From assembly GCA_025617745.1 (NCBI GenBank), contig CM046858.1, positions 37,031,119 to 37,095,118 of the forward strand: DNA of 64,000 nucleotides, given 5' to 3'. Both the position numbers and the translations under genes were made by a program. Origin of the DNA: Heliocidaris erythrogramma. Its lineage: Eukaryota; Echinodermata; Echinoidea; Camarodonta; Echinometridae. This document shows, piece by piece, positions 2,236-64,000 of the stretch. The notes below the pieces were generated by a model. That model saw only the letters and a list, made by a program, of their open reading frames with translations. It was not told the origin of the DNA and did not search any database. How positions within the stretch are numbered: the first letter of the stretch is position 1; each line of letters starts with the position of its first letter.

Positions 2236-4306
2236 TTATTCAAATCTGTGAACGAATGCATTCATGTACAAATCCCCACCATATGTAGGTTCGTTAATCC
2301 TGGCTACATTGTCATTAACATACATATGGCCACTGGTTGGTAGAGGCGAATATAAGAGATCACTTGAAGAAAGGATGCTTTTGAAAACGTCTTCTACCGG
2401 ATCACTTGGACCATCACCACACACATCATCGGGCGTGTGATGGGAAGACTGTGACACATGTGAGAGAGATTGGGAGGTTTTCCTCATATTCCTGGTTTTC
2501 CGGCTCATATCTGGTTTTGAATACATTGATTCTACCTCTGCTGCAGTTCGTGTCGTGCTTTGTTTCAGCGTATCCTCACTCGAAGTCTGTGGTTTATCCG
2601 TTGGGGAAGATGAGTTGCTATTCTTTTTGCTAAGGTGACGAGCTCCATCGTGGTCATCGGATGATTGAAGTGGCCTTAGAAAGGTCGAAAGGATTGAATG
2701 TTGGTCTGTTGTATTGGTGAATCTGGTAATAACGTTTACGTCATCCACTGAGGAATACCCGGTTTCCAATGACGGTGTCATCGAAAGTGGATTCTCTCCG
2801 AAGCGTTGCCCAATGTTTCTGTCATCACATGTATCCCCTGTACTCCTTCCTTCAGCAAAGACATTGAGATTAGACATGATGTTGGGTGGAAATGAATCTT
2901 CCATTTCACAAAGTACTGGTAGGGTTTGAGGTTTCCCTCTATCTTCATTGCTGGACTGCATCGTATCCTGCTCTGAACCATTGCTGTCCATTGTTGGTGA
3001 GCGCTGATCAGAGACAGACCCGTGGACATCAGTATCCATGCTAGGCCGAGATGGGTGGGATGAGATCTCGTCGTATTGTGAGTTTTTGAATCCTCCACGC
3101 TGTCTTCTTCTTCAAATGACCTCATCAAAGGATCTGGTGGCATAAGTCGTCTAACGTAATATTTATCATTCCGCACTAGGTTGTAGCATAATACAATACA
3201 AATGATGCTGAAAACAAAGGCAAGTGCTACAACAGCTGTCGTGGATATCAGCATGATGTGTAATTCATCAAGAGACTTTTTACTAGTTGCATCCGTCGTC
3301 AGCAGCAATGAGATAGATTTCGTAGTTGAGGAAACATTAGTTTCCCGAGTTGTACCCACCTTGTTAGTTGATGTTAAACTAGTTGCTGCAACATCCACCC
3401 TGATGTTTTCACATCGTATCTTGTCAGTCGAATAGTTTGGTTGTTTATGCCCTTCAGAAAATATATTCATCGTTAAGATGTTCTTATTTTGCGGATCGGA
3501 CAAAGCTATAATTCCAATACTTTGGACCATAGCTTTTGAGGAGTCAAATGCGAAGCAATCGGATTGACTGTGATCAATTACCTTTCGTTGTAATCTAGGA
3601 AAAGTACAGGACTTATCCAAAATGAATCTTCCATTATAAACTTCACAAGCATAATCATCTTGAGATATGTCCTCAATATCAACATATAAACTGAATTCGT
3701 GGGTCAAATTTAAATCACTATCAAATGTTTTGTCTGGAATGGCGTTTTCAAACAACATGTTATTTCCGACCATTTGAGTTTTGAGCGTTCGCTGCTGCTG
3801 ACTTGTAGCCACTTACAGTACATTTGTATTTTTTCTCGTTCTCTGTCCAGCAATGTGGTACAAGTGCTATTGCTATTAACAACAGTCAAATCCAGTAGCA
3901 ATGGCACACAGGTGCTCTTTGGTCCCTCGTAAATAACGATATAGTGTTGTCCGGAATCTTTAACTTGTGCAAATCTAATTAATACTTCGAATGTGTAGTT
4001 TTGGTACAATTCAGTCAACTGATAATGTGTACTTATCGAAGAATTATTACTTTTGCACTGAAGAGAACTATTACATCTGATATCCTCAGCTGCATGCGGT
4101 GCCATCCAAGTTACAGTGTGGTCTTCCAGTATTGGACCTTTCAGGTAAAACCTTACAGAAACATCCTCACCGTTCAATACTTTGAGTTATTTCCACTGGT
4201 ATTCACATAAACTATTCTCAGATGACGTCCATCGAGTACATGTTTTCAAAATTAAAGCAAGTAAGAATACCTTCCATTTGAGAGAACGTTGCTTGCTCCG
4301 CTGCAT
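2236..4306 (-). pseudogene. Ig-like transmembrane receptor, copy A (pseudogene)
   Basis: This is a broken paralogue of receptors B and F. The start is set by homology at the ATG ending at 4306, whose product begins MQRSKQRSLKWKVFLLALIL, a typical signal peptide. Lesions seen: an in-frame TAA at 4187-4189 about 40 codons in; a 2-bp insertion near 3773 between Ig-like modules 1 and 2; a deletion of about 135 bp near 3540 that removes most of the third module (CC..WW region); and a 1-bp deletion near 3065 in the cytoplasmic tail. The transmembrane segment (LHIMLISTTAVVALAFVF) and the tail tyrosines (YSSV, MYSKP, LYSPL, MYVND, LYMNA) are still readable across frames. AATAAA overlaps the stop codon. 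At least four independent lesions make a functional product unlikely. Confidence 0.85.
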
Positions 4307-5450
4307 TTTCATGTTCCGCCTATAAATTGTATCTAAACAAAAATCTATGAACCCTGTCAGTCAGTCCAGTAAGATAACGTATGATAGAGAGTTTCAAACG
4401 CATGCCAGTTGAAATGTAGGTACTGAGTGAATGGAATAGTAAAAAAAAAAGATGAAGAAGAGTTATACGGTGGTGAAGTTTTATTGAAAACGGAATACAA
4501 TCAGCTGGAATAAACAAAAATGGGCACATATTGCGGAAAACTCACATGGAATGAAAGCATGGCCTCTCGCGTCATTTGTAAAATGTATTCACTTATTCCT
4601 GATACCTCTTGGCATTACACTCATTTGAATATCCTGAATTTTGAGACATAGTGATATCCTGACATAAGCACTCATTAATTGTTGTAGTAGGCGGGGTTAA
4701 ATTTGTGATGTGAGAATCCAACACTGTGCTATTCTTCTTTATTATGTTATGGATCTTCTCTTTCCATTTGTATGACAGATAAATTAAACGATGGCACATG
4801 CGACAATTCTTACCCTGAAACCGAAATGTTTATATGATATTTATCATCTTGTTCTGGCATATATAATTTATGAAGACATATGCATTGGTTCACTACTTTC
4901 CTCTTCTGATGTACAAGCATGAGTTTATTGACTTGGTTGAAGAGATTGTATCTATTCATTGATTGTATATTTTCATGACGAAGGATAAAACCTCTATCAT
5001 TTCTCTCCCCCTTGAGAACAATGGAAGACCATTTACAAGGACACAAGACATGCGAATATTACATGAGGCATGTTATGCTGTACATAACAGATATTCTCTG
5101 GCATCATTCCTCACAAAATTTGATATCGTTCCCCATGTGGACCGAAACTTTCATCGTCTACTTAGGTGCTACTGAATCCAGTCTGCTTTATAACCGTACA
5201 AGCCGTTTTAAAAGAGGGTTCCCTCTTTTTGTTGACGCGAACTGCGAAACTAAAGCACACACCTTCCACAGATGCCCCTGCCTCTCGCACCCAAACAAAT
5301 TTCAAAAAATTATATACAGTGGCAAGGAAATCTGCAGCTCTACATTTGACATGTTTGAGATAATATGAACATGTTAAAAAAGAGGGATAAATGAAAAGAA
5401 AAATGTCTAGTTGACACTGAGGTGGATTGATAGCCTTGTAAGAAAATCTT
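4307..5450 (-). promoter_or_regulatory. Conserved 5' flank of receptor A
   Basis: About 1 kb upstream of copy A (minus sense) is alignable to the 5' flanks of B (16057-17000), D (28041-28470) and, less well, F (44431-45060). Landmarks are 'cttggcattaca' near 4608, 'gacatagtgatatcc' near 4643, 'tttatatgat' near 4829 and 'catcttgttctggcatat' near 4843. Conservation across subfamily 1 copies suggests it holds the promoter and perhaps a 5' UTR exon, but shared ancestry alone could explain it. I see no convincing TATA box at a usable distance. Confidence 0.45.
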
Positions 5451-6034
5451 CATGAACCAGTAATACAACCATTTATTTTGAATCTGCACCCTCACATGAT
5501 TTTAATTTGCCATGCCGCAGCATTTTCTTTCCATTTTAATTTGCCATCAATATTCATTTGGATACTCTCATCGATTGGATCCCCTCAATCTACGCACCTT
5601 TTTACTAACATCCTTTCAATACCTTACGTTAAATTAAATTATATCTTTTTGAAATTTATGCATGCACTCACCATGCTAATGTTTGTCGTTGTCCCCTCCT
5701 CATGGTCAGCTTCACAATATTAATTGGAGAAAAAAAATAACAATCATTCAGGGCGTTCTTATGTAAAATGCCTTTATCTGGTTTTAAACGGCTTAAACAT
5801 TGAAGAGTATTTTAAGTAGAAGGCTTTGTTGAATGAGCTGGGTATCTTTTAAAGGAAACTCAAATAAGGCTTTTTTTCATCTTCATATTTGATGAGCTTA
5901 GTTCCAAAAGGGACCAAAACTGAGTTTTATAGATATAAATAGATATGCGTATCTCCCACATTGGAATCAAATGTGCTATATGGCTTTAGAAATATATATA
6001 TTTAAAGTTTAAACAATTTCGCTCAAAAATTTAT
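5451..6034. other. Intergenic, no recognised feature
   Basis: AT-rich sequence with no supported gene, RNA or clear repeat boundary. Small open frames, such as one at 5478-5723, show no recognisable domain and lie in low-complexity sequence. Confidence 0.4.
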
Positions 6035-7721: not shown

Positions 7722-7768
<47 letters not shown>

Positions 7769-13848: not shown

Positions 13849-16056
13849 TTATTTAAATCTGTGGACGGATGCATTCACGTACAAGTCCCCATCATATTTA
13901 GGTACGTTAATGTGGGCTACATTGTCATTAGCATACATATGATCATTGGTTGGTACAGGCGAATATAAGTGATCGTTGGGAAAAAGGGTGCTTTGGCAAA
14001 CGCCTTCTACCGGATCACTTGGACCATTACCACACATATCATCGGGCGTGTGACGGAAAGACTGTGACACCTGTGAGAGAGATTGGGACGTTTCCCTCAT
14101 ATTCCTGGTTTTCCGGCTCATATCTGGTTGGGCATACATTGCTTCCAACTCTTCGGCAGGTCGTGTTGTGCTTCGCATCACCGTATCCCCGCTCGAGGTC
14201 TTTGGTCTTACCGTTGAGGAAGATTGATTTCCCATCCCGTCTCCATCGATACAAGCTCCATCACGTTCATCGGGTGACTGGCGAGGCCTGAGAATGGTTG
14301 GAAGCACTGAAGGTTGGTTTGCTGTATTGGTAACTGTTGTAGTGCCTTTTGCATCATCCACTGATGAATATGCGCTGTCAAGAGATGCTATCATCGAATG
14401 TTGCTGTCTAGTGCGTTTGTCATCGCATGAATCTTCTCTACACCGCCCTTCGGCAAAGATGTTGAGATGAGACATGCTTTTGGCAGCCAATGAATCCTCC
14501 GTTTCGCATAGCACCGGGAGGGTTGGATGATCACCTCGATCTTCCTTGCTGGACTGCATCGACTCCCGATCTGAACTATTGCTGTCCATTGTTGGTGAGC
14601 GCTGATTAGAAACAGGTTCGTGGATATCGGTATCAGTGCTAGGCCGAAGTGGGTGGGATGGGAAACTCGTCATCTCATGAGATCTTGAATCATCCACGGT
14701 GTCTTCCTCTGCAGATGAACTCATCAAAGGATCAGGCGACATATGTCGTCTCACGTGATATTTATCTTTTTGTAGGTAGTTGTAATAGCATAATATGATG
14801 AAGATAATACCAGTGCTGAAAACAAAGGCCAACGTTGCAACGGCTGTTGTGGATATAAGCATGATACTTATATCTCCAAAATTTCTGTTAAAACTTAGGG
14901 TCGTCGACTGCGTCGATATGCCCGAGTAAGTGGTCGGAACGCCACTTTTCTCTTTTGTTGCAGCATCTTTTTTGGTGGATAGTGAATCAAGTATTGTAAT
15001 ATTCACGCTTAGGCTTTCACATCGCAGTTCGTCAGTCGAATTGCTTATTTGTTTGTTCTTGCTAGATGATGCAGCTATTGTTAAGTCGTGGTTATCTTCT
15101 AGCTGGGAGAAATCCAAAATTCCAATGTTGTGGATCTTAGTCTTTAATGAATCATTATCTTCAACGCACAGGAATACTACATTATTGATCGAAGCCTTCC
15201 GATCTAGAGTAAACGGTAGGAGCTCGCCACTAGCTCTGTTCCACCATGATACTGGCATGTTCTCTCTGGTAACGCAGCAGTTGAAGTATTCGTCCCCGTT
15301 TTGACTGTACTTAATCGTTTGGTATCGTGCCGTAGGAAAACTGCACGTTTTATTTACATCGCTTTTCCCCCGAAAAACCACACAAACATATTCAACATCG
15401 GTTATATTCTGAAGATCAATGTAAATGCTGGATTTGTGGGTCAGTTTGAAACTACCATCGTACGAGTTGTCTGGAGTTCGATCTTCAAACACCAACTGAT
15501 TTCCAGCTAGGAACTCTACATGATCGTTATCGCTGATTTGCGTCCACTGACATGTCATCTGTATTTTTTCTCTCCTTTTGTCTAGCCATGTAGTACAAGT
15601 GGTATCCTTGTTAACCACGCTCAAATGAAAGATCAGTGCTGTACATGTTTTATCCGTTCGTTCGTTGATAATGACTAAGTGTTGACCCGAATCGTACTCT
15701 TGAGCATTTTGAATCCTTACTTCAAAGGTATTCTTAAACGTATTGATCAATTTATAACGTGTACTGATAGACGACTCGTTATTTGTACATTGGAGAGAGC
15801 TATTGCATATCATACTCCAACCACGATTCGGAGCGATCCAGGTAAGTGTTTGGTTTTCCAGTATGGGGCCTTTCAGAGAAAATTCCACGGAAACATCCTG
15901 ACCACTCAATACTTTGACTGATCTCCAATGGTAATTACATATACTATTCTCAGACGAAATTCGTAGGACAAACGCGTTCAGAATGAATGCAAGTAAGAAT
16001 ACCTTCCATTTGAGAGAACGTTGCTTGCTCCACATTTTGAGGTTCCTTTTATACAC
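13849..16056 (-). CDS. Ig-like transmembrane receptor with multi-tyrosine tail, copy B (intact)
   Basis: An intact single-exon frame of 735 codons. The real start is probably the second Met (codon 8, 16035), which matches the leader of F (MW..+.. KWKV). The product has a signal peptide (to about residue 35) and extracellular modules at about 36-150 (C40, W73, C84, C90; DSGQH at 122-126), 154-242 (C169, C225) and 243-320 (CC at 260-261, WW at 271-272, C297). A Ser/Thr-rich stalk, a transmembrane helix at about 396-425 and a 310-residue tail follow. Tail tyrosines: Y433, Y563 (SAYSSV, ITIM-like), Y641 (MYAQP), Y698 (LYSPV), Y708 (YAND) and Y726 (YVNA). Many N-glycosylation sequons support extracellular exposure. 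I do not recognise a named family. A signalling surface receptor, possibly immune, is inferred from architecture only. Confidence 0.87.
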   Translation of the reverse strand: MYKRNLKMWSKQRSLKWKVFLLAFILNAFVLRISSENSICNYHWRSVKVLSGQDVSVEFSLKGPILENQTLTWIAPNRGWSMICNSSLQCTNNESSISTRYKLINTFKNTFEVRIQNAQEYDSGQHLVIINERTDKTCTALIFHLSVVNKDTTCTTWLDKRREKIQMTCQWTQISDNDHVEFLAGNQLVFEDRTPDNSYDGSFKLTHKSSIYIDLQNITDVEYVCVVFRGKSDVNKTCSFPTARYQTIKYSQNGDEYFNCCVTRENMPVSWWNRASGELLPFTLDRKASINNVVFLCVEDNDSLKTKIHNIGILDFSQLEDNHDLTIAASSSKNKQISNSTDELRCESLSVNITILDSLSTKKDAATKEKSGVPTTYSGISTQSTTLSFNRNFGDISIMLISTTAVATLAFVFSTGIIFIILCYYNYLQKDKYHVRRHMSPDPLMSSSAEEDTVDDSRSHEMTSFPSHPLRPSTDTDIHEPVSNQRSPTMDSNSSDRESMQSSKEDRGDHPTLPVLCETEDSLAAKSMSHLNIFAEGRCREDSCDDKRTRQQHSMIASLDSAYSSVDDAKGTTTVTNTANQPSVLPTILRPRQSPDERDGACIDGDGMGNQSSSTVRPKTSSGDTVMRSTTRPAEELEAMYAQPDMSRKTRNMRETSQSLSQVSQSFRHTPDDMCGNGPSDPVEGVCQSTLFPNDHLYSPVPTNDHMYANDNVAHINVPKYDGDLYVNASVHRFK

Positions 16057-17039: not shown

Positions 17040-17345
17040 CAATGGCAAATTCAGGATGGACCCGTATCTTCGATGCTAAAACCTTCCAAACATTTACAAA
17101 ATAATTGTTTACCTTCTAACAAATTTTCTATGCCAGTTTTAAAGACATTGCGAGTATTATTAGAAGGTAATAAGGATTTCAATAAAGTCCAAGTACTTCC
17201 AGCATTGATTTTCATTTTTATTAATTGATCATTAATATATTTTTTCTTTGCTTTCCTAATTTCAAAAGTAACTTTATTTCTTAATTTTCTGTAATCTCTC
17301 ATCTTTTTTAAATCTTTATTTATCCAAGCTTTTTTCTTTATCTTG
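17040..17345 (-). mobile_element. LINE fragment, endonuclease-RT linker
   Basis: The minus strand reads a basic stretch MRDYRKLRNKVTFEIRKAKK (from 17302) followed by YINDQLIKM...STWTLLKSLL. This is the region between endonuclease and reverse transcriptase in Jockey/CR1-type LINEs ('R..AKK.Y...L......TW..LN'). It is truncated on both sides and lies next to the CR1 tail on the opposite strand, so two LINE insertions abut here. Confidence 0.7.
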
Positions 17346-17389
17346 TCTCTTCTCTAATCATATATTTCCTCTCTCCTTCATTCCTCTTT

Positions 17390-18988: not shown

Positions 18989-21153
18989 TTAAAATCGGTG
19001 GACGCATGCATTCATGTACAAATTCCCATAATGGCGTTCATTTTCAGTACCATACATAGGACCATTGGTTGGTACAGCCGAATATAAGTGATCGTTTAAT
19101 GAAAGGGTGCTTTGGCAAACGCCTTCCAATGGCTCACTTGGACCATTACCACAGACATCATCGGGTGTGAGATGGGAAGATTGTGAAACCTGTGAGAGAG
19201 ATTGGGACATTTTCCTTGTTTTCCTGGTTTTAAGGCTCATATCTGGTTGGGCGTACATTGCTTCCAACTCTGCGGCAGATCGTGTCGCGGATGGTATCAC
19301 CGTATCGCCACTCGAAGTCTTCTGTTTATCCGTTGATGAAGGTGAGTTGCTGATCTTGTTGCCAGAAAGACGGGCTTCATCATGGTCATCGGATGATTGA
19401 AATGGCTTTAGAATGGTCGGAAGCATTAAAGGTTTTTTTTTTAATCTGGTAGTGCCTTTTACATCATCCAGTGAGGAATACCCGGTTTCGAGAGACGGTG
19501 TCATTGAACGTGGATTATCTCCGAAGTGTTGCCCAGCGTTTCTGACATCACATGTGTCTCCTGTACACCCTCCTTCTGCAAAGATGTTAAGATTAGACAT
19601 ACCTTTGGATATAAACGAATCTTCCATTTCACAAAGTACCGGGGAGGGTTTGAGGTCTGTCTTCATTGCGGGACTGCGTCGTCTCCTGCTTTGAACTATT
19701 GCTGTCCGATGTTGGTGAGCGTTGATCAGAGACCTCAGCAACAATGCTAGGCCGACATGGGTGGGAAGGAAAAACTCCTCATTTCTTGAGATCTTGAATC
19801 CTCCACGGTGTCTTCCTCTGCAGATGAACTCACCAAAGGATCAGGTGACATATGTCGCCCTACGTGATATCTATCTTTGTAGTAGCATAATATGACCAAG
19901 ATGATACCGATGCTGATAACAAATGCCAGTAAAGAAGCGCCTGTCAGGGATATTAGGATTATATTATGAATATCCTCCAAAATGTTATTGTTGCTTTGAT
20001 CCGTCACCGTCATCAGTTGAGTGGAGGTACTGGTCGATTTGATGAAATTTGCTCGAGTCACACCATCTTCATTAGGTGACGTCGATTCCGATTTTGCAAC
20101 ATTCACACTGATGTTTTCACATCGTTGTTCGTCAGTGAAATTGATTAATTGATTGCTCTGGGCAGAAGATTTAGTAGCAGTCACAGTGATGTTATCCTGA
20201 TGCCCCTGCAAATCTAAAACTATCATGCTATGCACGATCATCTGAAGGTCATTATCGTCGATGCATAGAAATAGAATGAAGTTGGTATTTGTTACGTTGT
20301 ACGTTTCTTGCAGACTAAGCTGCACTATTTTGCCACTGTTACTATACCACCAAACGAGAGAAATTCTCTCATTTCCAACGCAACACTTGAATAGTAGATC
20401 ATCAGTTTCCCGGTATTTTAATGTTTGACGTTCAACAGATACAAAGTTACACGTTTCATTAACATGGATATTTTCACGAAAAGTCACACAAATATTTGGT
20501 ACTCCTTCGCCATCTAATATGTCCTGATAATCAAGAGAAACATTTATATTATTGGCCAGTATGAAATTGCCATCGATCTTCCTGTGTGTCGTGCGATGTT
20601 TATACGCATGGTTTCTTGATATGAGTTCAGTGTGATCGTCATTGCCGTCTTGCATCCACTGACAAGACATTTGTAGTTTCTCACTTTCTCTGTCCAGGAG
20701 TGTAATGCAAATGGGATGCCTATCAACAACGGTCAAAGTGAATATCAGCGCTGTGCAAATGAGTTGTTCTTTCTCGTAAATAGTAATGTAGTGAGTTCCC
20801 GAATCCAATTTTTGCGCAAGTTCAATCCTTATTTCGAATGTATTTTTAGGGACCGATGAAAGAAGCTTATAACGTGCACGAATGTGCGATTCGTTGCTTA
20901 TGCACTGGAGAGAATGATTACATCTAACTCTCCAAGCTGCATTAGGAGTCATCCACACAAGGGTTTGGCTTTGCTGTACCGCACCCGTCAGACGAAATTT
21001 TATCGAAACATCCACACCATTAAGTACGTCGATTTGCTTCCAATCGTACTCACATGTACTGTCATTCTTAGACGAAGTGCGTTGAACAAAAATCATCAAA
21101 ATGAAGATACACAGAAAATGTTTCCAACAGAGAAAAGTTGAACCCCTAGACAT
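18989..21153 (-). pseudogene. Ig-like transmembrane receptor, copy C (tail frameshifted)
   Basis: Subfamily 2 copy. The first frame (21153-19747, 468 codons) runs from a clear signal peptide (MSRGSTFLCWKHFLC...) through three Ig-like modules, including the FKCCV...VWW signature, and the transmembrane helix (SLTGASLLAFVISIGIILVI). It then enters the juxtamembrane segment with RYHV and the acidic SAEEDTVED stretch and stops at 19747. Compared with E there is a 1-bp insertion near 19770 and a second frame change near 19640. The distal tail, with YSSL, MYAQP, LYSAV and LYMNA, is still readable in a separate frame down to 18989. As written it would make a membrane receptor lacking almost all tail tyrosines. 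It could be a pseudogene, a decoy-type allele or a consensus error. Confidence 0.8.
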
Positions 21154-22353: not shown

Positions 22354-22384
<31 letters not shown>

Positions 22385-25039: not shown

Positions 25040-25865
25040 TAGATTTTCCTGTTAGAAATTAAAGTTTCTACTATTTAACAAAATGTGACTGTATGTTAAC
25101 AGTTTCCTTGTTTTTTACCACCCAAGTCATGCATCTTGACTGCATGGACTGCCAGGAATTCTCTGTGAAAAAACGACATTTTTTACAGTGTATGTCAGAA
25201 GGAGGTGTACAGTGTTCATTACATCATCGATAGATATAGTGCTAATAAAGCTACATACATTTATTTTCAAAATGTCATATTTAATCCTTATTTTTATTAT
25301 TATCATTCCTCATCATTGTCTGAAACTTTTTCAACATTACGGCCATTCTGAATTTCCGTATTTCCAACTAATTAGTGTATAATTTCGATCTGATATCAAG
25401 GATACATTTATCGAACACCTTCCCATCAACTTACCATTATTGACAGATTTGATATCAATGTTTCATAAATTTCATAAATATCACCCTAATAATTTTGTTT
25501 AGTACCTAAGATAATTAGGTAGAAATAATATTCAACGAAATTTTCAGTTCCAATTTCAGTACAGTCACAGAACCCGGCTTTATTTGTAACTGTTCAATAT
25601 GACTGTCATGACATTACTGATTTGCCAAAGTTATGTGACCTCAAAATGGTTTTATGTGACAAAACTCGAATTTCATCAGATCAGTAATCGTTTGTTTTAG
25701 AAGCCAGTGTATAATTTATCATTTTTATTTGAAGTTAGAGTGTATAAAGAATGGCCGACCTGATTTCAGATGTTCTTTCAAGGAAAAGGTTTACATGGCA
25801 AACCTTTTTTTTATATATATGCTACATAAAATTGTTTATACAATCCAATTGTGGCGTTCATTTAT
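25040..25865. repeat. Proximal 3' flank of receptor D
   Basis: Close paralogue of 41346-42237 (F) and 62880-63759 (G). Landmarks: 'tgcatggactgccaggaatt' at 25141, 'catcgatagatatagtgcta' near 25225 and 'aatggccgacctgatttcag' near 25751. It lacks the roughly 60-bp block containing 'cgcccgtattctgaact' that is present in the F and G copies. No gene. Confidence 0.75.
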
Positions 25866-28040
25866 TAAATATACAGTTCTCGATCACATGTAGATTCGTC
25901 AGTGCGGGTTACATTGTCATCAATACCATACGTATGGTCACTGGTTGGTACAGGCGAATATAAGTGATCGCTTGAAGAAAGGTGCTTTGGCAAGCGCCTT
26001 CTATCGGATCATTCGGAGCATTACTACACACATCATAGGGCGTGTGATGGGAAGATGGTGACATCTTTGAGAGGGATTGAATGTTTTCCTCATATTCCCG
26101 GTTTTCCTGCTCATATCTGGTTGGGCATACAGTGCTTCTACCTCTGCTGCAGTTTGTGTCGTGCTTCGTAATCACCGTATCCCACTCGAAGTATGTGGTT
26201 TATTCCGCTGGAAGATGAGTTGCTAATCTTGTTGCTAAGATAACGAGCTCGATCGTGGTCATCGGATGATGGAGTGGACTTAGGAAGGTCGAAAGCATTG
26301 AATGTTGGTCTGTTGTATTGGTGAATCTGGTAGTGCCCTTTACATCTTCCACTGAGGAATATGCGTTGTCCAGAGCGATGTCATTAATAGTGGATTATTC
26401 TCCAAAGTGCTGTCCAACGAGTCTGTCATCACATTTATCCCTGTACACACTCCCTCAGCAAAGATGTTGATATTGGACATACTTTTGGATGGAAACGAAT
26501 CTTCCATTTCACAAAGTATCGGAGGGTTTGAGGTTTCCCTCTATCTTCATTGCTGGACTGCATCGTATCCTGCTCTGAACCATTGCTGTCCATTGTTGGT
26601 GACCGCTGATCAGAGACAGACCCGTGGATGTCAGTATCCATGCTAGGCCGAGATGGTGGGATGAGAAACTCGTCGTATGGTGAGTTCTTGAATCCTCCAC
26701 GCTGCTGTCTTCTTCTTCAGATGACTTCATCGAAGAATCAGGTGACATAAGTCGTCTAACGTGATATTTACCATTCCGCACTAAGTTGTAGTAGCATAAT
26801 ACACAATACAAATGATGCTGAAAACAAAGCAAGTGCTACTACAGCTGTCGTGGATATCAGCATGATGTGTAATTCATCAAGAACTTTTTGCTAGTTGCAT
26901 TCGCCTTCGGCAGCACTGAGATAGATTTCGTAGTTTGAGGAAACATCAGTTTCCCGAGTTGGTACCCACTTTGTTATTTGATGTTAAACTAGTTGCTGCA
27001 ACATCCACCGTGAGGTTTTCACATCGTATCTTGTCAGTCGAAAGTTTGGTTGTTTGTGCCCTTCAGAAAATATATTCATCGTTAAGATGTTCTTATTTTG
27101 CGGACTCGACAAAGCTATAATTCCAACACTTTGGACTTTAGCTTTGAGGCATTATTATCTTCAAGACATATAAATAATATTTATCAGCATTGGTCGCAGT
27201 GGTTTCCTGTTTTATTGATTGGAAGCAATCCTCCACTAGCATTGTGCCACCACATGATTGAAATGCTGTCATTATTACACACAGCAGTCAAATGCGAAGC
27301 AATCGGATTGACTGTGATCAATTACCTTTCGTTGTAATCTTGGAAAAAGTACAGGACTTATCCAAAATAAATCTTCCATTATAAACTTCACATGCATAAT
27401 CATCTTGAATATGTCCTCAATATCAACATATAAACTGAATTCGTGGGTCAAATTAGCTCACCATCAAATTTTCTGGTCTGGAATAGCGTGTTCAAACAAC
27501 ATGTTATTTCCGACCATGAGTTTTGAGCTTCGCTGCTGCTGACTTGTAGCCACTTACAGTACATTTGTATTTTTTCTCGTTCTCTGTCCAGCAATGTGGT
27601 ACAAGTGCCTGCATTTACAACAGTCAAATCCGTAGCAATGGCGTACAGGTGCTCTTGGCCCTCGTAAATAACGATATAATGTTTTTCCAGAATCTTTAAC
27701 TTGTGCAAATTTAATTAATACTTCGAATGTGTAGTTTTGGTACAGTTCAGTCAACTTATAACGTGTACTTATCGAAGACTCATTACTTGTGCACTGAAGA
27801 GAACTATTACATCTGATACTCTCGGTAGCATGCGGTGCGATCCAATTACAGTGTGGTTTTCCAGTATTGGACCTTTCAGATGAAACCTTACAGAAACATC
27901 TTGACCATTCAATACTTCGATTGGTTTGCAATTGGAGTCACAAAAACTATTCTCAGCGACGTCCATCGAGTACAGTTTTCAAAATTTAACTTAAGTAAGA
28001 ATACCTTCCATGTGAAAAAACGTGGCTTGCTCCACTGCAT
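25866..28040 (-). pseudogene. Ig-like transmembrane receptor, copy D (mosaic pseudogene)
   Basis: The whole receptor can be followed by homology from an ATG ending at 28040 (MQWSKPRFFTWKVFLL) to a stop near 25866, but the frame is broken many times by mostly single-base deletions. Readable pieces include the first module (27966-27554), the IQMYCKWLQV stretch, the transmembrane region around 26860-26780, and tail motifs. The retained third module (27130-27290) shows that D did not descend from the deleted copy A. From 25866 to about 26520 it matches F; upstream of that (in + coordinates, higher) it matches A almost base for base. Clearly non-functional as assembled, although the density of 1-bp gaps also fits uncorrected long-read error. 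Confidence 0.82.
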
Positions 28041-33746: not shown

Positions 33747-35901
33747 TTAAAATCGGTGGACGCATGCATTAATGTACAAATTCCCATGGCGTTCATTTTC
33801 AGTACCATACATAGGGTCATTGGTTGGTACAGCCGAATATAAGTGATCGTTTGAAGAAAGGGTGCTTTTGCAAACGCCTTCCAACGGCTCACCTGGACCA
33901 TTACCACAGACATCATCAGGTGTGAGATGGGAAGATTGTGAAACCTGTGAGAGAGATTTGGACATTTTCCTTATTTTCGTGGTTTTAAGGCTCATATCTG
34001 GTTTGGCGTACATTGCTTCCAACTCTGCGTCAGGTCGTGTCGCGCATGGTATCACCGTATCGCCACTCGAAGTCTTCGGTTTATCCGTTGATGAAGTTGA
34101 GTTGCTGGTCTTGGTGCCAGAAAGAAGACGGGCTCCATCATGGTCATTGGATGATTGAAATGGCCTAAATCTGGCAGTGCCTTTTACATCATCCACTGAG
34201 GAATACCCGGTTTCGCGAGACGGTGTCATTGGAAGTGGATTATCTCCGAAGTGCTGCCCAGCGTTTCTGTCATCACATGTGTCTCTTATACACCCTCCTT
34301 CTGCAAATGTGTTGAGATTACACATGCTTTTGGATAGAAACGAATCTTCCATTTCACAAAGTACCGGGAGGGTTTGAGGTTTACCTCGGTCTTCACTACG
34401 GGACTGCGTCGTCTCCTGCTTTGAACTATTGCTGTCCGATGTTGGTGAGCGCTGATCAGAGACCTCAGCAACAATGCTAAGCCGACATGGGTGGGAAGAG
34501 AAACTCGTCATCTCTTTAGATCTTGAATCCTCCACGGTGTCTTCCTCTGCAGATGAACTCTCTAAAGGATCAGGTGACATATGTCGCCCCACGTGATATC
34601 TATTTTTTCGCACAAAGTTGTAGTGGCATGACATGACCAAGATGATGCCGATGCTGAAAACAAATGCCAGTGAAGAAGCGCCTGTCACGGATTTTAGCAC
34701 TATATTATGAAGATCCTCCGAAATGGTGTTGTTGCTTTGATCCGTCACCGTCATCAGTTGATTGGAGGTACTAAATGATTTGAAGAAATTTGCTCGAGTC
34801 ACGCCATCTTCATTATGTGACGTCGATTCCGATTGTGCAACATTCACATTGATGCTTTCACATCGTTGTTCGTCAGTGGAATTGATTGATTGATTGGTAT
34901 GGGTAGAATATTTAGTAGCAGTCACAGTGATGTTATCCTGATGCCCCTGCAAATCTAAAACTATCATGCTATGCACTATCATCTGAAGGTCATTATCGTC
35001 GATGCACAGAAATAGTATGTAGTTGGTATTTGTTACGTTGTACGTTTCTTGCAGACTAAGCTGCACTATTTTGCCACTGTTACTATACCACCAAACGAGA
35101 GAAATGCTCTCATTTCCAACGCAACACTTGAATTGTAGATCATCAGTTTCCCGGTATTTTAACGTTTGATGTTCAACAGATACAAAGTTACACGTTTCAT
35201 TAACATGGATATTTTCACGAAAAGTCACACAAATATTTGGTACTCTTTTGCCATCTAATATGTCCTGATAATCAACAAAAACATTGATATCATTGGTCAG
35301 TATTAAATTGCCATCGAGCTTCCTGTGTGTCGTTCGATGTTTATACAACGCATGGGTTTTTGCTTTGAGTTCTGCGTGATCGTTATTGCTGACTTGCATC
35401 CACTGACAAGACATTTGTAGTTTCTCACTTTCTCTGTCCAGGAGTGTAATGCAAATGGGATCCCTATCAACAACGGTCAAAGTGAATATCAGCGCTGTGC
35501 AGATGAGTTGAAATTCTTTATCGTAAATAGTAATGTAGTGAGTTCCCGAATCCAATTTTTGCGCAAGTTCAATCCTTATTTCGAATGTATTGTTAGGGAC
35601 CGATGAAAGAAGCTTATAACGTGCATGAATGTGCGATTCGTTGCTTATGCACTGGAGAGAATGATTACATCTAACTCTCCAAGCTGCATGTGGAGTCATC
35701 CACACAATGGTTTGGCTTTGCTGTACCGCACCCGTCAGACGAAATTTCATCGAAACATCCACACCATTAAGTACGTCGATTTGCTTCCAGTCGTACTCAC
35801 ATGTACTGTCATTCCTTAGAAGAAGTACGTTGAACAAAAATCATCAAAATGAAGATACACAGAAAATGTTTCCAACAGAGAAAAGGTGAACCCCTAGACA
35901 T
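33747..35901 (-). pseudogene. Ig-like transmembrane receptor, copy E (signal peptide frameshifted)
   Basis: Subfamily 2 paralogue of C with an uninterrupted 696-codon frame from 35837 to 33747. The homologous ATG is at 35901, but one extra base near 35816-35820 throws the leader out of frame. From that ATG translation would stop after about 30 residues. The in-frame Met at 35837 gives MFNVLLLRND, with no signal peptide. Everything downstream is intact: three Ig-like modules (FKCCV...VWW signature), the stalk, a transmembrane helix (SLAFVFSIGIILVM) and the full tail with RYHV, GYSSV, MYAKP, LYSAV, MYGTE and LYINA. Compared with B and F the first distal YxN is replaced by YGTE. It may be a very recent pseudogene, a mis-assembled base, or use an alternative upstream exon. 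Confidence 0.8.
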
Positions 35902-42237: not shown

Positions 42238-44430
42238 TCATTTATCCAAATCGGATGCATTCATGTACAGATCTCGATCACATGTAGATTCGTCAGTGCG
42301 GGTTACATTGTCATTACCATACGTATGGTCACTGGTTGGTACAGGCGAATATAAGTGATCGCTTGAAGAAAAGGTGCTTTGGCAAACGCCTTCTATCGGA
42401 TCATTTGGAGCATTACTACACACATCATAGGGCGTGTGATGGGAAGATGGTGACATCTGTGAGAGGGATTGGAATGTTTTCCTCATATTCCCGGTTTTCC
42501 TGCTCATATCTGGTTGGGCATACATTGCTTCTACCTCTGATGCAGTTTGTGTCGTGCTTCGTATCACCGTATCCCCACTCGAAGTCTGTGGTTTATCCTC
42601 TGGGGAAGATGAGTTGCTAATCTTGTTGCTAAGGTGACGAGCTCCATCGTGGTCATCGGATGATGGGAGTGGCCTTAGAAAGGTCGAAAGCATTGACTGT
42701 TGGTCTGCTGTATTGGTGAATCTGGTAGTGCCCTTTACATCTTCCACTGAGGAATATGCGTTGTCCAGAGGCGATGTCATTGATAGTGGATTATCTCCAA
42801 AGTGCTGTCCAACATGTCTGTCATCACGCGTATCTCCTGTACAAACTCCTTCAGCAAAGATGTTGATATTAGACATACTTTTGGATGGAAACGAATCTTC
42901 CATTTCACAAAGTATCGTGAGGGTTTGAGGTTTACTTCGATCTTCATTGCTGGACTGCATCGACTTCTGCTCTGGATTATTGCTGTCCATGGCCGTTGAC
43001 CGCTGATCAGAGACAGACCCGTGTACATGAGTATCCATGCTAGGCCGAGATGGGTAGGATGAGAAACTCGTCATTTGGTGAGATCTTGAGTCCTCTACGG
43101 TGTCTTCCTCTGCAGATGAACTCATCAAAGGATCAGGTGACATAAGTCGTCTCACGTGATATTTATCATTCCGCACTAAGTTGTAGTAGCATATACAAAT
43201 GATGCTGAAAACAAAGGCCAGTGCTAAAACAGCTGTCGTGGATATCAGCATGAAATGTAATTTATCCAGAGGCTCTTTGGTAGTTTGATTCGTCGTCGGC
43301 AGCGATTGAATAGAATTCGTAGTTGAGTAAACGTCAGTTTCTCGAGCTGTCCCCTCTTTGTTAGTTGATGTTAAGCTAGTTGGTGCAACATTCACACTGA
43401 CGTTTTCACATCGCAGCTTGTCAGTCGAATTGTTTGATTGATTTTCCCCTCCAGAAAATGTATTAATCGTTATGTTCTCATTTTGCGTACCGGAGAAAGC
43501 TATACTTCTAATGTTGTGGATCATAGTCTTTGAGGCATTATCATTTTCAAGACATATAAATAATATTTTGTCGGCACTGGTCACAGTGTGGTTTCCTATT
43601 GTGTTGAGTGGTAGCAATTCACCACTAGCATTGTGCCACCATGTGAGTAAAGTGCTCTCATTCTCCACACAGCAATGAAATTCCATGTCTTTGGATTGAC
43701 TGTAATCAATCAGATGCCCTTGTATTCTAGGAAAAATACAGGACTTATCCCAAATTAGCATTCCGTTAGAAATTGCACAAACATAATCATCATCGTCAAT
43801 GTCCTGGAAATCAACATGTAAACTGACTTCGTGGGTCAACTTGAGATCACCATTAAATGTTTTGTCTGGAGTAGCATGTTCAAACAACGTCTGATTTCCA
43901 ACCATGAGTTTTGCCCGTTCACTAATGCTGACTTGTACCCATTGACATGACAATTGTAATTGTTCTCGTTTTCTGTCAAGCCATGAAGTACAAGTGCTAT
44001 TTATGTTAACGACGGTCAAGTGAAAGATCAGTGGTGTACATTTCCTGTCCGCTCTCTCGTAGACAAGGAGGACGTGTTGTCCCGAATCGTGTTCTTGTGC
44101 AGGTTCAATTCTTACCTCAAACTTATCATCTAACAGTTTGATCAATTTATAACGTGTACCGATAGACGACTCGTTGCTTATACAGTGGAGAGAACTATTG
44201 CAAGTAACACTCCAACCACGATTTGGCGATATCCACGTAAGTGTTTCGTTTTCCAGCATGGGACCTTTCAGGGAAAATCCCACAGAAACATCTTGACCAT
44301 TCAATGCGTCGACTGATTCAAATGTGTACTCACAAGTACTGTTATCACACCAAATACGTAGGACAAACGTGTTCAAAATTAAAGCAAGTAAAAGTACCTT
44401 CCATTTGAAAAATCGGTGCCTCGTCCACAT
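42238..44430 (-). CDS. Ig-like transmembrane receptor with multi-tyrosine tail, copy F (intact)
   Basis: Complete single-exon frame of 730 codons, starting MWTRHRFFKWKVLLLALILN, a good signal peptide with cleavage near residue 28. Module 1 spans about 30-143 (W67, C78, C83, HDSGQH at 114-119, where Ile/Leu/Val replaces the usual second Ig cysteine). Module 2 spans 147-235 (C162, C218). Module 3 spans 238-313 (CC at 253-254, WW at 264-265, C293). A Ser/Thr-rich stalk and a transmembrane helix at about 393-415 follow. Tail tyrosines: Y424 (KYHV), Y559 (AYSSV), Y637 (MYAQP), Y668, Y694 (LYSPV), Y704 (YGND) and Y722 (YMNA). Pairs with B as the only undamaged copies. Surface signalling is inferred; ligand and adaptors are unknown. 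Confidence 0.9.
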   Translation of the reverse strand: MWTRHRFFKWKVLLLALILNTFVLRIWCDNSTCEYTFESVDALNGQDVSVGFSLKGPMLENETLTWISPNRGWSVTCNSSLHCISNESSIGTRYKLIKLLDDKFEVRIEPAQEHDSGQHVLLVYERADRKCTPLIFHLTVVNINSTCTSWLDRKREQLQLSCQWVQVSISERAKLMVGNQTLFEHATPDKTFNGDLKLTHEVSLHVDFQDIDDDDYVCAISNGMLIWDKSCIFPRIQGHLIDYSQSKDMEFHCCVENESTLLTWWHNASGELLPLNTIGNHTVTSADKILFICLENDNASKTMIHNIRSIAFSGTQNENITINTFSGGENQSNNSTDKLRCENVSVNVAPTSLTSTNKEGTARETDVYSTTNSIQSLPTTNQTTKEPLDKLHFMLISTTAVLALAFVFSIICICYYNLVRNDKYHVRRLMSPDPLMSSSAEEDTVEDSRSHQMTSFSSYPSRPSMDTHVHGSVSDQRSTAMDSNNPEQKSMQSSNEDRSKPQTLTILCEMEDSFPSKSMSNINIFAEGVCTGDTRDDRHVGQHFGDNPLSMTSPLDNAYSSVEDVKGTTRFTNTADQQSMLSTFLRPLPSSDDHDGARHLSNKISNSSSPEDKPQTSSGDTVIRSTTQTASEVEAMYAQPDMSRKTGNMRKTFQSLSQMSPSSHHTPYDVCSNAPNDPIEGVCQSTFSSSDHLYSPVPTSDHTYGNDNVTRTDESTCDRDLYMNASDLDK

Positions 44431-50348: not shown

Positions 50349-50355
50349 TTCACCC

Positions 50356-50399: not shown

Positions 50400-52371
50400 T
50401 TCACCCATGGCCCTTCACCGTATTCTGCGAGGGGTTCAAACATATAATATGGTCGAATTTCCCCTTGCCACTCGAGCTTCTTTGCCTTCGGGGTCTGATA
50501 AATCATCTGATAAATCAGAGTTCGTATCTGCATGGCTCAGAAAAGTCCTCCAACTCGGAATCGCGGGCACTTTTCCTCTCTCTCTATATAAGTTACTACT
50601 CGAATTCAGCCAAAATCTATAGTCAGTACTAACGTACTATGTAAAGCGAAGTATAAACAAAAAAAGCCGTAAGTGAAATAAACAAAACAAAAACGTTCAC
50701 CAGTCGCTATGTACGAGGGGAACATAGTCACTGCCGTACTAAAAATGTGTAGGACGCATAAAACGGCTGTGCACGCGTTTATGACCAATGCAAAATTTTC
50801 GTTGGGCAAGCTCAGATGGATGAGAAGATTGTTCAAAAGAAAAGCTAAAAAGCAAACCAAGAGCTGTATATTTGGGCAAAAGCGTTTTCTGATCTTGTAG
50901 AAAATATATTGCTAACGATTATTTACTGCTAAGATTATATTGATTAGTTTCCTTTTTTCATAAATTGTCCGTTGAACAGAGGGGTCAAATACCGCATTCT
51001 GTGTACAATATTTTATGCTGCAGTCTGCAGATCTTGTGCCTCTTACTTTTCATACGTCACTTGGGGGTTAGCCAATCAGCTCACGAGTTTTAAGGAGCGT
51101 TCCCAAAACCTCTACTTTTCCCCCTTTTTCGCCAAAACGAGACATAATTTGGACAATCGATTGGCAGATTCGTGATTAGAAGGCAAAACCACATGGAAAA
51201 GCACCCATTTTCTCTCTAATTTAGTCAACCTTTAAACAGAAACGATAAGACCCCAAAAGTAAATAAAAGATAAATCGCACACTAGCATTATAGTCTAAGA
51301 CCCTCAAGCTATGGACGAAAACTTCAACACATACTTCTCCAAAATTGGACAAAACCTAGCAGAAAACATCTCGACAACCGAAAGAAAATTCCACAACATT
51401 TTCAATAACAAAAACCCATCTTCATGTTTTTGTCCCAACTAACCGCGAGGAAATTATTGGGATAATAATAAACTGGATGGGAAGAAAAGTTCAGGGCATG
51501 ACGACAATGATAATTACATTCTCAGGTCAATTATCTTATCGATTACTAATCCTGTGGTTCATATTTTTAACTTCGGGTATAGTACCGAATAGCGTTAAAA
51601 TAGTTCTAGTCATCCCAATATTCAAGAAATGTGATGCTTTAGAAACCAATAATTATAGGCCAATATCATTATTACCATCACTCTCCAAAGTTCTAGAAGA
51701 TTTGTCTTTATCAGAGTTACAGCCTTTCTCAACAAACATAACATTATTTGTGATTCTCAGTTTAGCTTTCGAGCAAACCATAATACAACACTGGCAATAT
51801 TAACATGCACAGATACTATAGCCCATGGCATTGATCAGCGCTTGCATACCATCGCAATTTTCCTGGACTTTTCCAAGGCTTTCGATACTATAAACCATAA
51901 TCATGATAATATTCTCCTACATAGGTTATTGCACTACGGTTTTCAGGAATTATTTATCAAATAGAAAACAATTTGTAGAAATAAATAATCATATGTCATC
52001 GTTACGACCCATAATCTGGGGTGGTCCCGGGCCCTTATTATTTATCATATACATAAATGACTTTTATAAATCCTCAGATGTGCTTTCATTTATTCTATTT
52101 GTAGACGACTCAAACATATTTTATTCTCATTCTAACCCTAATACCCTTCTTTCAACAATAAACAAAGAACTTAAATGCATAGTAGAATGGGTAAAAGCAA
52201 ACAAGTTATCACTTGACATACTAAAGACAAATGTTATACTGTTTAGTAACACCTTGCAAAACTTACCTGGAAATATTTTTTGGACGACGCGCCGCTGGAT
52301 AGGGTATCATCAACAAAATTTCTAGGGCTTACGATTGACGATAAACTAAACTGGAACATGCAAGTACAAAA

Positions 52372-54300: not shown

Positions 54301-54939
54301 GCAGGACCCACCCCTTTCTCTCTCTCTCTCTTTCTCTCTCCATCTACTTCTCTCTTCTCTGTTTTATCCCCTTGTCACCCTTTCACCCCTTCTTTTTCCC
54401 GCATTCTCTCTTCCTTCTTCTGACACACAGACACACTCATTATCTTTCATTTCCCCCTTCCTCCATCCCCTTCTCTTCATTCCCTTTTGTTTCCACACCG
54501 TCTTGCACTTCCACTTTACTTTCATACTTAGTTTTTCTTGTGGGTTGAGGCAATAGTCCTTCTACCTCAACACACTTATTAATTCTCTCTTATCAATAAT
54601 TCGCTTCTAATGATGCTTTATGAATTTATTATTATTGAACGACCCAATCGTGATTAAGTTATGTAAGTTTCTGGACATGTAATATACAAGCTTTGCTTTT
54701 AAACATGTCCAACTGTTTTCAACATCACTTAAGAGGTTAATATGTGTGCTTCATATTGTTTACTTATTAATATTTGATTATGTACCCATATCTATGGAAA
54801 AAACATCATTGTTACATATAATGTTATTGTATTCATCGTATCGCCCGGAATACCGGAGGATACTTTGGATTTTGCAGCGTTCCGCCGCCGCCGCCGCCGC
54901 GTCACATTATTGTGTGCGCTCTAGCGGTTACATTTCTCA
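54301..54939. other. Pyrimidine-rich LINE trailer and unassigned DNA
   Basis: 54310-54560 is CT-rich low complexity following the LINE stop, probably its 3' UTR. A (CCG)n run lies at 54880-54901. The encoded Ser/Leu/Phe-rich frame is not a gene. Confidence 0.45.
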
Positions 54940-56150
54940 ACGGATTTTGTTCAAACTTTGCATGAAGGTGTCTCTTGGTAGAATCTAGAAACGTATAGAT
55001 TTTGGTGATGCTGCCTCCAGTGTTCCGTCTTTTATAGGGTCAAAGGTCATATTTTTTGATAGATGTCTGGTGTGCACTCCTGTGTGCGCTCTGGCGGTCA
55101 CATTTCTCAAAGGATTTCGTTCAAATTTTGCCTGAAGGTCTCTCTTGGTGTAATCTAAAACTATATAGTTTTTGGTGATGCTGCCACCAGTGAACCGTCT
55201 TTTATAGGGTCAAAGGTCATACTTTGAAGAATGGCGTGAGGGCACTCTGCAGGCCACATTTCTGGATGAATTTCTTTCAAATTTTGTATGGAGATGTATC
55301 TTGGTATAATCTACACATCTTTACTTTTTGTGATGCTGCCCTCATTTTCCCATCCTTTATAGGGTCAAAGGTCCATTTCTTGCACTCTTACTTCTGCATT
55401 TTTTGACAGATTTTGTTCAGATTTGTATGGAACTGTATCTTGGTAAAGTCTACGCACCTATAATTTTTGGTGATGCTGCCACCAGTGTCCCGTCTGTTAT
55501 AGGAACAAAGACATACCTTGGAGGATGGAACGAGTGCACTATGCAGGCCATGGATTTCTTTCAAATGTTGTATAGAGATGTATCTTGGTACACTCTACAT
55601 AGGGTCAAATGTCATTTGTCCATTTCTTGCACTCTTCAAATTCTTTCAAATTTTGTATAGAGATGTATCTTGGTACACTCTACAAATTTATACTTTTTGA
55701 TAATGCTGCCCTCAATGTTCCGTCCTTTATAGGGTCAAGGTTATTTGTCTTTTGTGCGCTCTAACTTCCACATTTCTTGACGGATTTCTTTGAAATTTTA
55801 TATGGAGGTGTGTCTTAGTGTAATCTACACATCTATAGTGTTTGCTGATGCTGCCCCCAGTGTTCCGATTTTTATAGGGTCAAATGTCATATTTACGTTG
55901 CATGCATTCTGGAGGACACATTTGTTGACTGATTTCTTTCAGATTTTGTTGTGGAGGTCCGTCATAGAATACTCTAGTCCTTTACAGTATTGGTGATGCT
56001 GCCCCCAGTGTTCCATCTTTCATAGGGTCAAATGTCATAATTAAATTAATGGATATCTTGTGTGCGCTCAGAGGTCACATTTTTTGACAGATTTCTTTCG
56101 AATTTTCTATAGAGATGCATTATACTCTAATCTAAACACATTGTTTCGGC
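54940..56150. repeat. Diverged minisatellite, about eight units
   Basis: Units of about 100-170 bp share 'tttttggtgatgctgcc', 'agtgttccgtcttttatagg' and 'gggtcaaaggtcat'. The last motif recurs at 55037, 55207, 55362, 55602, 55732, 55877 and 56024, with a variant at 55502. Frames in several windows repeat the same peptide-like pattern (F..CMEM/LYG..), which is just the repeat read through. No gene. Confidence 0.85.
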
Positions 56151-60253: not shown

Positions 60254-60440
60254 TGAAAAAGGGAAATTAGCCTAATCAATATAGTCTTTGGAGTGAATAA
60301 TCATTATCTATATATTTTCTACAAGATCAGCAAACACTTTGGCCCAAATATACAGCTCTTGTTTTGTTTTTTTAACTTTTTTATGAACAATGTTCTCATC
60401 CATCTGAGCTTGCCGAACGAAAGTTTGGCATTGGTCTTAA
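60254..60440 (-). repeat. Third partial copy of the THAP element
   Basis: Matches 58829-59015 ('ttttctacaagatcag', 'acaatgttctcatccatctg', 'gagcttgccgaacgaaag'). It ends abruptly at 'gcattggtc' near 60440. Probably a remnant of an earlier insertion or of unequal exchange. Confidence 0.75.
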
Positions 60441-62829: not shown

Positions 62830-63759
62830 ATTAAAAAAATAACTGTAAAACTACAGGTTTTGGAGACTGTTCCGTTTTATTTCACATAGATTTTCCTGAT
62901 GGAAATTAAAGTTTCTACTATTTAACAAAAATATGACTGTATGTTAACAGCTTCCTTGTTTTTACTACCCAAGTCTGTGAGAAAAGCACAATCGCCCGTA
63001 TTCTGAACTTCGGTTTAGCTTAAACCGCGGTCTATGTACCGTGGAAAAACGGGCATTCCCGGCATCCTGACTGCATGGACTGCCAGGAATTTCCTATGAA
63101 AAAACGGCAATTATTTTTTTACAGTGTATGTAAGAAGGAGGGTTACAGTTTTCATTACAGCATCGATAGATATAGTGCTAATCTACATGCATTTATTTTC
63201 AAAATGTTATCTTTAATCTTTATTTTTATTATTATCATTCCTCATCATTGTCTGAAACTTTTTCAACTTTACGGCCTTTCTGAATTTCCGTATTTCCAAC
63301 TAATTAGTATATAATTTCGATCTGATATCAAGGATACATTTATCGAACACCTTCCCATCAACTTACCATTATTGACAGATTTGATATCAATGTTTCATAA
63401 ATTTCATAAATATCACCCTAATAATTGTGTTTAGTACCTAAGATAATTAGGTAGAAATAATATTCAACGAAATTTTCACTTCTAATTTCAGTAACTGTGC
63501 AATATGACTGTCATGACATTACTGATTTGCCAAAGTTATGTGACCTCAAAATGATTTTATGTGACAAAACTCGAATTCATCAGATCAGTAATCGTTTGGT
63601 TTAGAAGCCAGTGTATAATTTATCATTTTTATTTGAAGTTAGAGTGTATAAAGAATGGCCGACCTGATTTCAGATTTTCTTTCAAGGAAAGGGTTTACAT
63701 GGGCAAACTTTTTTTTATATATGCTACATAAAATTGTTTATACAATCCAATTGTGGCGT
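62830..63759. repeat. 3' flank of receptor G
   Basis: Close paralogue of 41100-42237 (F) and 25040-25865 (D), including 'cgcccgtattctgaact' (62993), 'tgcatggactgccaggaatt' (63072) and 'aatggccgacctgatttcag' (63654). The alignment starts abruptly near 62830, so the duplication edge is here. Confidence 0.75.
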
Positions 63760-64000
63760 TCATTTATTCAAATTGGATGCAATCATGTACAGATCTCGAT
63801 CACATGTAGATTCGTCAGTGCGGGTTACATTGTCATTACCATAGGTATGGTCACTGGTTGGTACAGGCGAATATAAGTGATCACTTGAAGAAAAGGTGCT
63901 TTGGCAAACGCCTTCTATCGGATCATTTGGAGCATTACTACACACATCATAGGGCGTGTGATGGGAAGATGGTGACATCTGTGAGAGGGATTGGAATGTT
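63760..64000 (-). CDS. Ig-like transmembrane receptor, copy G (C-terminal part, cut by window edge)
   Basis: The last 72 or more codons of another subfamily 1 receptor, in frame to the window end. It shows the tail motifs PYDV, HLYSPVPT, TYGNDN and LYMIAS and ends NLNK. It is nearly identical to F, but the final YMNA is YMIA here, so the last YxN is lost. AATAAA overlaps the stop codon. Whether the rest is intact lies outside the window. Confidence 0.85.
   Translation of the reverse strand, partial: TFQSLSQMSPSSHHTPYDVCSNAPNDPIEGVCQSTFSSSDHLYSPVPTSDHTYGNDNVTRTDESTCDRDLYMIASNLNK

Follow-up and report, generated by a model that had tools for sequence, protein, structure and literature searches.

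A one-strand cluster of single-exon, predicted immunoglobulin-like receptor genes with conserved tyrosine-bearing tails in the sea urchin Heliocidaris erythrogramma

What kind of system is encoded by a row of related membrane-protein genes, some intact and some broken, that all lie on one strand of a sea urchin contig? We addressed this question for a stretch of 64,000 nucleotides of the Heliocidaris erythrogramma genome (assembly GCA_025617745.1; contig CM046858.1, hereafter C6; C6:37031119-37095118). This whole stretch, which we call the window, lies within a genome of 1,064,227,859 bases in 26 contigs, and everything reported here comes from that one genome of one species. The original prediction, made from the letters of the window, had proposed an array of receptors with immunoglobulin (Ig)-like modules and signalling tails. 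Our analysis leads us to favour, with moderate confidence, a large germline family of single-exon immunoglobulin superfamily (IgSF) receptors with SH2-docking tails, which evolves by duplication, gene conversion and loss.

Searching the window by tblastn with the proteins of two copies, B and F, recovered seven receptor copies (A to G), all on the minus strand. Copies B (13849..16035) and F (42238..44430) are intact single-exon receptor open reading frames (ORFs) of 728 and 730 amino acids, each running uninterrupted from an ATG through a signal-peptide-like hydrophobic N-terminus and one hydrophobic transmembrane stretch to the stop codon. The stop-free runs that contain them measure 750 and 735 codons; the longest such run in 60 same-size first-order Markov sequences was 211 codons (median 149). 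Between B and F, the ratio of nonsynonymous to synonymous divergence (dN/dS, or omega) was 0.48 in the ectodomain, transmembrane stretch included (bootstrap 0.35-0.62), and 0.64, again below 1, in the tail (bootstrap 0.46-0.93).

Four of the six copies that lie wholly within the window are broken, each damaged differently. Copy A (2236..4297) has a stop at the start of the distal domain (D1), two frame changes and, relative to copy D, a gap in the third domain (D3), as judged from the tblastn frames and the DNA comparison with D; its tail is long and open. In copy C (18989..21153) the ectodomain and transmembrane stretch are open (468 amino acids), and the tail carries two frame changes near 19772 and 19641. 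Copy D (25835..28034) is strongly degraded, with 25 stops inside its longest match. Copy E (33747..35901) is open from D1 to the end of the tail and has one frame change just past the signal peptide (about 35812-35816). Copy G (63763..64000) reaches into the window with just its C-terminus; the gene runs on to C6:37097072 and has one frame change in the tail. The tandem, same-strand, single-exon type I membrane receptors of the original prediction, with their mix of intact and broken members, were thus recovered, and the subfamilies it proposed were borne out.

Upstream of the ATG, a splice acceptor looked possible in B and F and was rejected, as it is not common to the other copies; a 5' untranslated region (UTR) intron may still precede the single coding exon. 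At the other end, A, C, D and E share an AATAAA hexamer that overlaps their stop codon; B has AATAAT there and F has GATAAA. If the 3' UTR is very short, the AATAAA could serve as its polyadenylation signal.

The array extends well beyond the window. A genome search with F gave at least 65 matches and one with a distant short-tail member at least 98; all copy counts from these searches are lower bounds. Merging both searches with six rows found by scanning 200 kb at 36.49-36.69 Mb gave at least 83 places from C6:36518817 to 37469549, about 951 kb, all on the minus strand, with a median gap of 6.5 kb. Because the merging rule (gap of at most 700 bases, span of at most 3.2 kb) may divide a single gene or fuse two neighbours, the count refers to places rather than genes. 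Of these, 54 reach 1 kb and 32 reach 1.8 kb; 29 are shorter than 1 kb, and many of the short ones are fragments. Outlying matches occur at 38.16-38.38 Mb on C6 and on contigs C9, C16, C20 and C21. The seven copies proposed for the 64-kb stretch are present, but the array is not confined to it.

The portion of sequence examined for long ORFs held 36 stop-free runs of 380 codons or more, and 33 of them were family members (31 without two repeats of B and F). After start choice, 23 family ORFs reached at least 600 amino acids, including copy E, which lacks an intact start; their median pairwise identity was 28%. Non-family stop-free runs on the minus strand of the cluster region lie at C6:36509654-36511141 (495 codons, L010/L011), C6:36570018-36573284 (1088 codons, L017) and C6:36685487-36687151 (554 codons, L028).

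What, then, is the ectodomain? Its distal domain D1 (residues 29-145 of F, 43996..44346, minus strand) is predicted to adopt an Ig V-set fold. AlphaFold2 modelling of the D1 of copy C, using an alignment of the window copies, gave a best of five models with a predicted local distance difference test score (pLDDT) of 77.4 and a predicted template modelling score (pTM) of 0.70; the other four had pLDDT values of 75.6, 52.1, 42.0 and 30.4. Foldseek with the D1 model returned 583 PDB matches at an expect value (E) of at most 1e-3, and the best 50 of these were mostly titled antibodies, nanobodies or Ig receptors (MPZL1 included). A few of the 50 titles (such as those of 5m95_B, 9hjk_B and 7yag_C) name only the antigen or partner, and their chains of 114-125 residues are taken to be the nanobody. 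The Pfam and structure searches suggested alongside the original prediction thus gave a split result: Foldseek placed the D1 model in the Ig V fold, and Pfam stayed below threshold. Its V-set profile scored 17.9 bits for copy C and 15.5 bits for the D1 of B against a cut-off of 26 bits, and reached E <= 0.1 in just 2 of 24 family members. The D1 of B also matched Pfam Receptor_2B4 weakly (E 0.056, 14.1 bits, well under the 21-bit cut-off).

The alignment columns of D1 suggest why. Core residue Trp66 and the motif DxGxH, where the canonical form is DxGxYxC, are present in 24 of 24 members, yet in every one of them strand B (positions 47-54) and strand F (position 121) lack the canonical cysteine. 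Instead, cysteines C33 and C131 are invariant in all 24, and we infer that they pair in a disulfide. Profile searches likely miss the family because D1 lacks the hallmark cysteine pair. A profile of the 24 members gave seven PDB hits at E 0.13-1.1, none significant and all Ig-fold (myomesin, DIP-theta, TIM-3, TIM-4); profiles restricted to the window copies yielded a mixture of chance matches, and single-protein searches against Pfam and PDB sequences returned nothing usable. In keeping with the original prediction, no matching named family emerged from Pfam, the PDB or the set of papers searched.

Domains D2 and D3 (residues 146-345 of F, 43396..43995, minus strand) appear Ig-like from their cysteine and tryptophan pattern and, for D3, from weak hits. 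In D2, C162, W164 and C218 are present in 24 of 24 members; in D3, C253 and C293 are present in 23 of 24. D3 matched DCC and DIP-theta weakly in the PDB, and D2 matched nothing there. Internal Ig repeats were sought by sequence and are not claimed: the D1/D2 and D2/D3 profile comparisons matched only ends that overlap by construction, and D1/D3 gave no match. The model of the whole three-domain ectodomain (pLDDT 37.7) was too poor for use. Its best Foldseek hits were IgLON adhesion proteins at a template modelling score of about 0.16, a hint only. Thus, of the three Ig-like modules proposed, D1 gained support from a predicted structure, whereas D2 and D3 did not.

The transmembrane stretch of F, recognised by hydropathy, covers about residues 392-415 (43186..43257) and is followed by a cytoplasmic tail of some 300 residues (residues 424-730, 42241..43161; minus strand, as are the motifs below), which is polar and probably disordered. 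The claim that its tyrosines are conserved held up. In the window copies, all five majority-tyrosine columns are invariant, versus 93 of 262 of all tail columns. Across the 23 tailed copies, Y[AST][KQN]PDM is present in every one (YAQPDM in F, residues 637-642, 42505..42522) and Tyr559 in 21. The motif Y[MVI]N occurs in 15 of the 23 tails, and TxYxx[VI] in 3; F carries LYMN, a YxN motif, at residues 721-724 (42259..42270). In B, SAYSSV (residues 554-559, 14359..14376) fits the consensus of the immunoreceptor tyrosine-based inhibition motif (ITIM), but its F equivalent, NAYSSV, does not. Tyrosine motifs of this kind may recruit SH2 proteins.

Four members are nearly tail-less (C6:36518808, C6:38.16 Mb, C6:38.38 Mb and one on C20) and end within about 15 residues of the transmembrane stretch. 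Downstream of them, we found no exon carrying a homologue of the tail in about 8.8 kb (C6:36518808), 4.1 kb (C20) and 2.9 kb each (L038 and L039). One of the four, L038, has a lysine and an arginine near the inner end of the transmembrane stretch.

How did so many copies arise? At the DNA level, C and E are 90% identical over 3 kb, D and F 85%, and F and G 90%, and the pair C+D corresponds to E+F as a block. Some 300 kb away, copies like B to G occur a second time in unchanged order, at 90-95% identity in the gene-bearing stretches compared. There, L007 (C6:37347227-37349392) is intact and 95% identical to B. L034 and L008 are each 91-94% identical to both C and E and are told apart by order only; L003 is 92% identical to D and L002 92% to F. 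L004 occupies the place of G, and its identity of 90% was measured against D, not G. In this second block the counterparts of the broken copies C, D, E and G are open, and the counterpart of F carries TAG.

In the window's subgroup, heads and tails have not diverged to the same degree. Among B, F and the C/E pair, synonymous divergence (dS) is 0.69-1.00 in the ectodomain versus 0.34-0.48 in the tail. Between F and L003 it is 0.538 in the ectodomain and 0.091 in the tail, and between A and F it is 1.02 in D1 and 0.26 in D2-D3. Within the window-type subgroup, 42 of 45 pairs had a lower dS in the tail than in the ectodomain, although the pairs are not independent. In this subgroup, the tails are homogenised while the ectodomains diverge, and the low tail dS indicates that the tail is conserved there largely through homogenisation. 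The trees place F differently from segment to segment. Its D1 groups with that of B (bootstrap 98); in the D2-D3 and tail trees, F groups with A and D, and other trees have p values of 1e-5 or less. These topologies are suggestive, although not conclusive, of head exchange between copies.

Rapid evolution, as the original prediction had it, found partial support. Pooled pairwise omega was 0.90-2.12 in the stalk, exceeding 1 in two of the three subgroups tested, but the Ig domains, at 0.24-0.73, are under average purifying constraint. Pervasive positive selection was therefore set aside: pooled pairwise omega gives it no support outside the stalk. At ectodomain dS of 0.2-0.8, omega was 0.43-0.88 in the ectodomain and 0.35-1.03 in the tail. 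As far as pairwise counts can tell, diversity owes more to old divergence, duplication and recombination than to pervasive positive selection.

Several known systems offer a comparison. Teleost NITR and mammalian KIR and LILR are IgSF receptors that lie in clusters, with pseudogenes among them; their distal domain is of V or C type, and their tails carry tyrosine motifs. The sea urchin Toll-like receptor (TLR) expansion is, like the family described here, a large echinoderm germline family; TLRs are LRR-TIR proteins, and neither they nor the Sp185/333 (SpTransformer) proteins are Ig receptors. Distal V domains of the CD2/SLAM type, such as that of CD244/2B4, have a V-set fold without the canonical disulfide; the weak Receptor_2B4 match of B D1 and TxYxx[VI] in 3 of 23 tails add to the resemblance, which is probably convergent. 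Teleost NILTs share the clustering of IgSF receptors, tyrosine-motif tails and pseudogenes, but the one-Ig NILTs described in PMC3022915 have six exons and tails with an ITIM or an immunoreceptor tyrosine-based activation motif (ITAM); the genes studied here have one exon, ITIMs in 11 of 23 tails, ITAMs in none and no canonical D1 cysteine pair. Sp185/333 is likewise a large echinoderm germline family with segmental duplication, proposed gene conversion and few exons (PMC3091723, PMC1988830), although PMC3091723 gives two exons per gene, where we find one. The Hydractinia Alr genes encode clustered invertebrate IgSF single-pass proteins of low identity, with many presumed pseudogenes and Ig membership recognised through AlphaFold (PMC11067881). 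Compared by description, they differ in belonging to Cnidaria and in numbering at least 41 loci, over half of them in three clusters, as that source reports, versus at least 83 one-strand places here.

In its copy number, duplicated blocks, pseudogenes and uncoupling of heads from tails, the family resembles known recognition clusters (Sp185/333, Alr, NILT). We therefore hold immune recognition to be the most likely use, and by this analogy the receptors may serve in immunity or allorecognition. Starting from the observed gene structure, copy number, motif conservation and tail homogenisation of the window subgroup, we propose the following model. Behind its signal peptide, each receptor would have a V-set-like distal domain whose disulfide is displaced, then another two Ig-like modules and a stalk, followed by a single transmembrane helix and the tail. 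The divergent ectodomains would bind microbial or cell-surface ligands. Upon ligand engagement, Src-family kinases would phosphorylate tail tyrosines in [STN]xYxx[VL]DD, Y[AST]xPDM, YSxV or YSN, and Y[MVI]N, which would then dock SH2 proteins; the few near-tail-less members may serve as decoys or partners. The repertoire would expand by tandem and block duplication in one orientation, pseudogenes would remove members, and segment exchange would let different ectodomains carry one homogenised tail. More tentatively, and at less than even confidence, the family could be an innate germline V-domain repertoire in a one-strand megabase array, in which gene conversion and segment exchange join many divergent heads to one SH2-docking tail that is kept homogenised. 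It would then parallel KIR, NITR and Alr within the deuterostomes, with genes that lack introns and a V domain whose disulfide has been relocated.

Several observations weigh against a recognition family of this kind. The second block may represent a haplotype that was left uncollapsed. Among pairs from outside the window subgroup, just 49 of 78 had the lower dS in the tail, which means that homogenisation does not extend to the whole family, and in the approximately unbiased test on D1 the grouping of F with A and D was not quite rejected (p 0.054). Omega below 1 in the Ig domains is unlike the positive selection expected of some immune receptors. As to signalling, the ITIM consensus [SILV]xYxx[ILV] is found in 11 of 23 tails and is absent from the intact F; ITAMs, sought as paired Yxx[LI] at a spacing of 6-12, occur in 0 of 23 tails; and 7 of the 23 stop short of the last YxN motif. 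Three of the four short-tail transmembrane cores lack Lys, Arg, Asp and Glu (His is present), so the parallel with vertebrate paired receptors does not hold in detail.

Could these genes serve in building tissues instead? An adhesion or cell-fusion family, kin by function or descent to intronless echinoderm Ig proteins such as KirrelL, would build tissues rather than serve defence, by means of homophilic or heterophilic Ig contacts and a tail of the Grb2 type. SH2-docking tyrosines are common in the tails of adhesion IgSF proteins, and the IgLON adhesion proteins were the best Foldseek hits of the three-domain model; that match, however, rests on a model of pLDDT 37.7 and a template modelling score of about 0.16. 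KirrelL is an Ig-domain transmembrane protein whose gene is intronless in all echinoderms examined in PMC8903837. Yet that source treats kirrelL as one gene, a skeletogenic fusion gene, and the comparison is by description (PMC8903837). Among PDB matches up to E 10, no chain was named Kirrel or nephrin, the Kirrel content of the PDB set being unchecked. A developmental adhesion gene would not usually show at least 83 places, with numerous broken copies and duplicated blocks, and we consider this alternative unlikely.

Self/non-self or gamete recognition (allorecognition, sperm-egg recognition or fusion compatibility), in which polymorphic ectodomains would share one tail as in Hydractinia Alr, appears rather doubtful to us. 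In its favour, the Hydractinia allorecognition complex does consist of clustered IgSF single-pass proteins with pseudogenes (PMC11067881). Against it, echinoderms are solitary. It is highly improbable that the array is mostly decaying or inflated by assembly, with one or a few useful genes among pseudogenes and uncollapsed haplotypes, since, although four of six whole window copies are broken, a block 90-95% identical recurs in the same order about 300 kb away, 29 of the at least 83 places are under 1 kb and the eight pairs with ectodomain dS below 0.2 span omega values from 0.26 to 1.81, the 23 long ORFs at a median identity of 28% are mostly not alleles of one another, their core and tail motifs are invariant, and pairs at ectodomain dS 0.2-0.8 keep the omega values given above.

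Between the receptor copies, the window holds degraded pieces of non-LTR (long terminal repeat) retrotransposons at 51360-52325 (plus strand), 31040-31948 (plus) and 17051-17353 (minus). Within the first, RVT_1 matched at 51659-51964 (E 9.5e-7, 29.2 bits, slightly under the 29.6 cut-off); the other two are reverse-transcriptase-like by eye and gave no such Pfam hit. A tandem array at 47856-48897 has a 171-bp unit in 6.2 copies with 90% matches, and two-copy repeats with units of 148-170 bp lie at 54911-55225 and 55769-56043. In a GC-richer stretch between E and F, a stop-free run of 340 codons (37116-38138, minus strand) has no Pfam hit and is possibly mobile-element coding. Scanning the window for Rfam families and tRNAs gave no hits.

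Elsewhere in the assembly, the mitochondrial contig C24 (L041) carries cox1, then tRNA-Arg, an ND4L-like ORF and cox2 (ND4L and cox2 named by eye), which is the echinoderm mitochondrial gene order. Its cox1 has 11 in-frame TGA codons. Translated with table 9 (the code of echinoderms and flatworms) and compared with the best PDB cox1 (8d4t_N), three of four AAA codons fall at Asn, one at Gly and none at Lys. The other reassigned codons are less telling: one of three AGA codons falls at Ser (the others at Ala and Gly), and four of ten ATA codons fall at Ile and two at Met. Gene order and codon use thus indicate an echinoderm.

According to a review of 2026 (PMC13428168), recognition in echinoderms works through expanded TLRs, NLRs, scavenger receptors and SpTransformer proteins. 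If the recognition reading of this one-strand receptor family is true, it would bring a repertoire of Ig-based recognition to a branch of the deuterostomes other than the chordates. One could then also test whether clusters of the KIR/NITR type originated independently, and how one-exon genes allow heads and tails to be exchanged whole.

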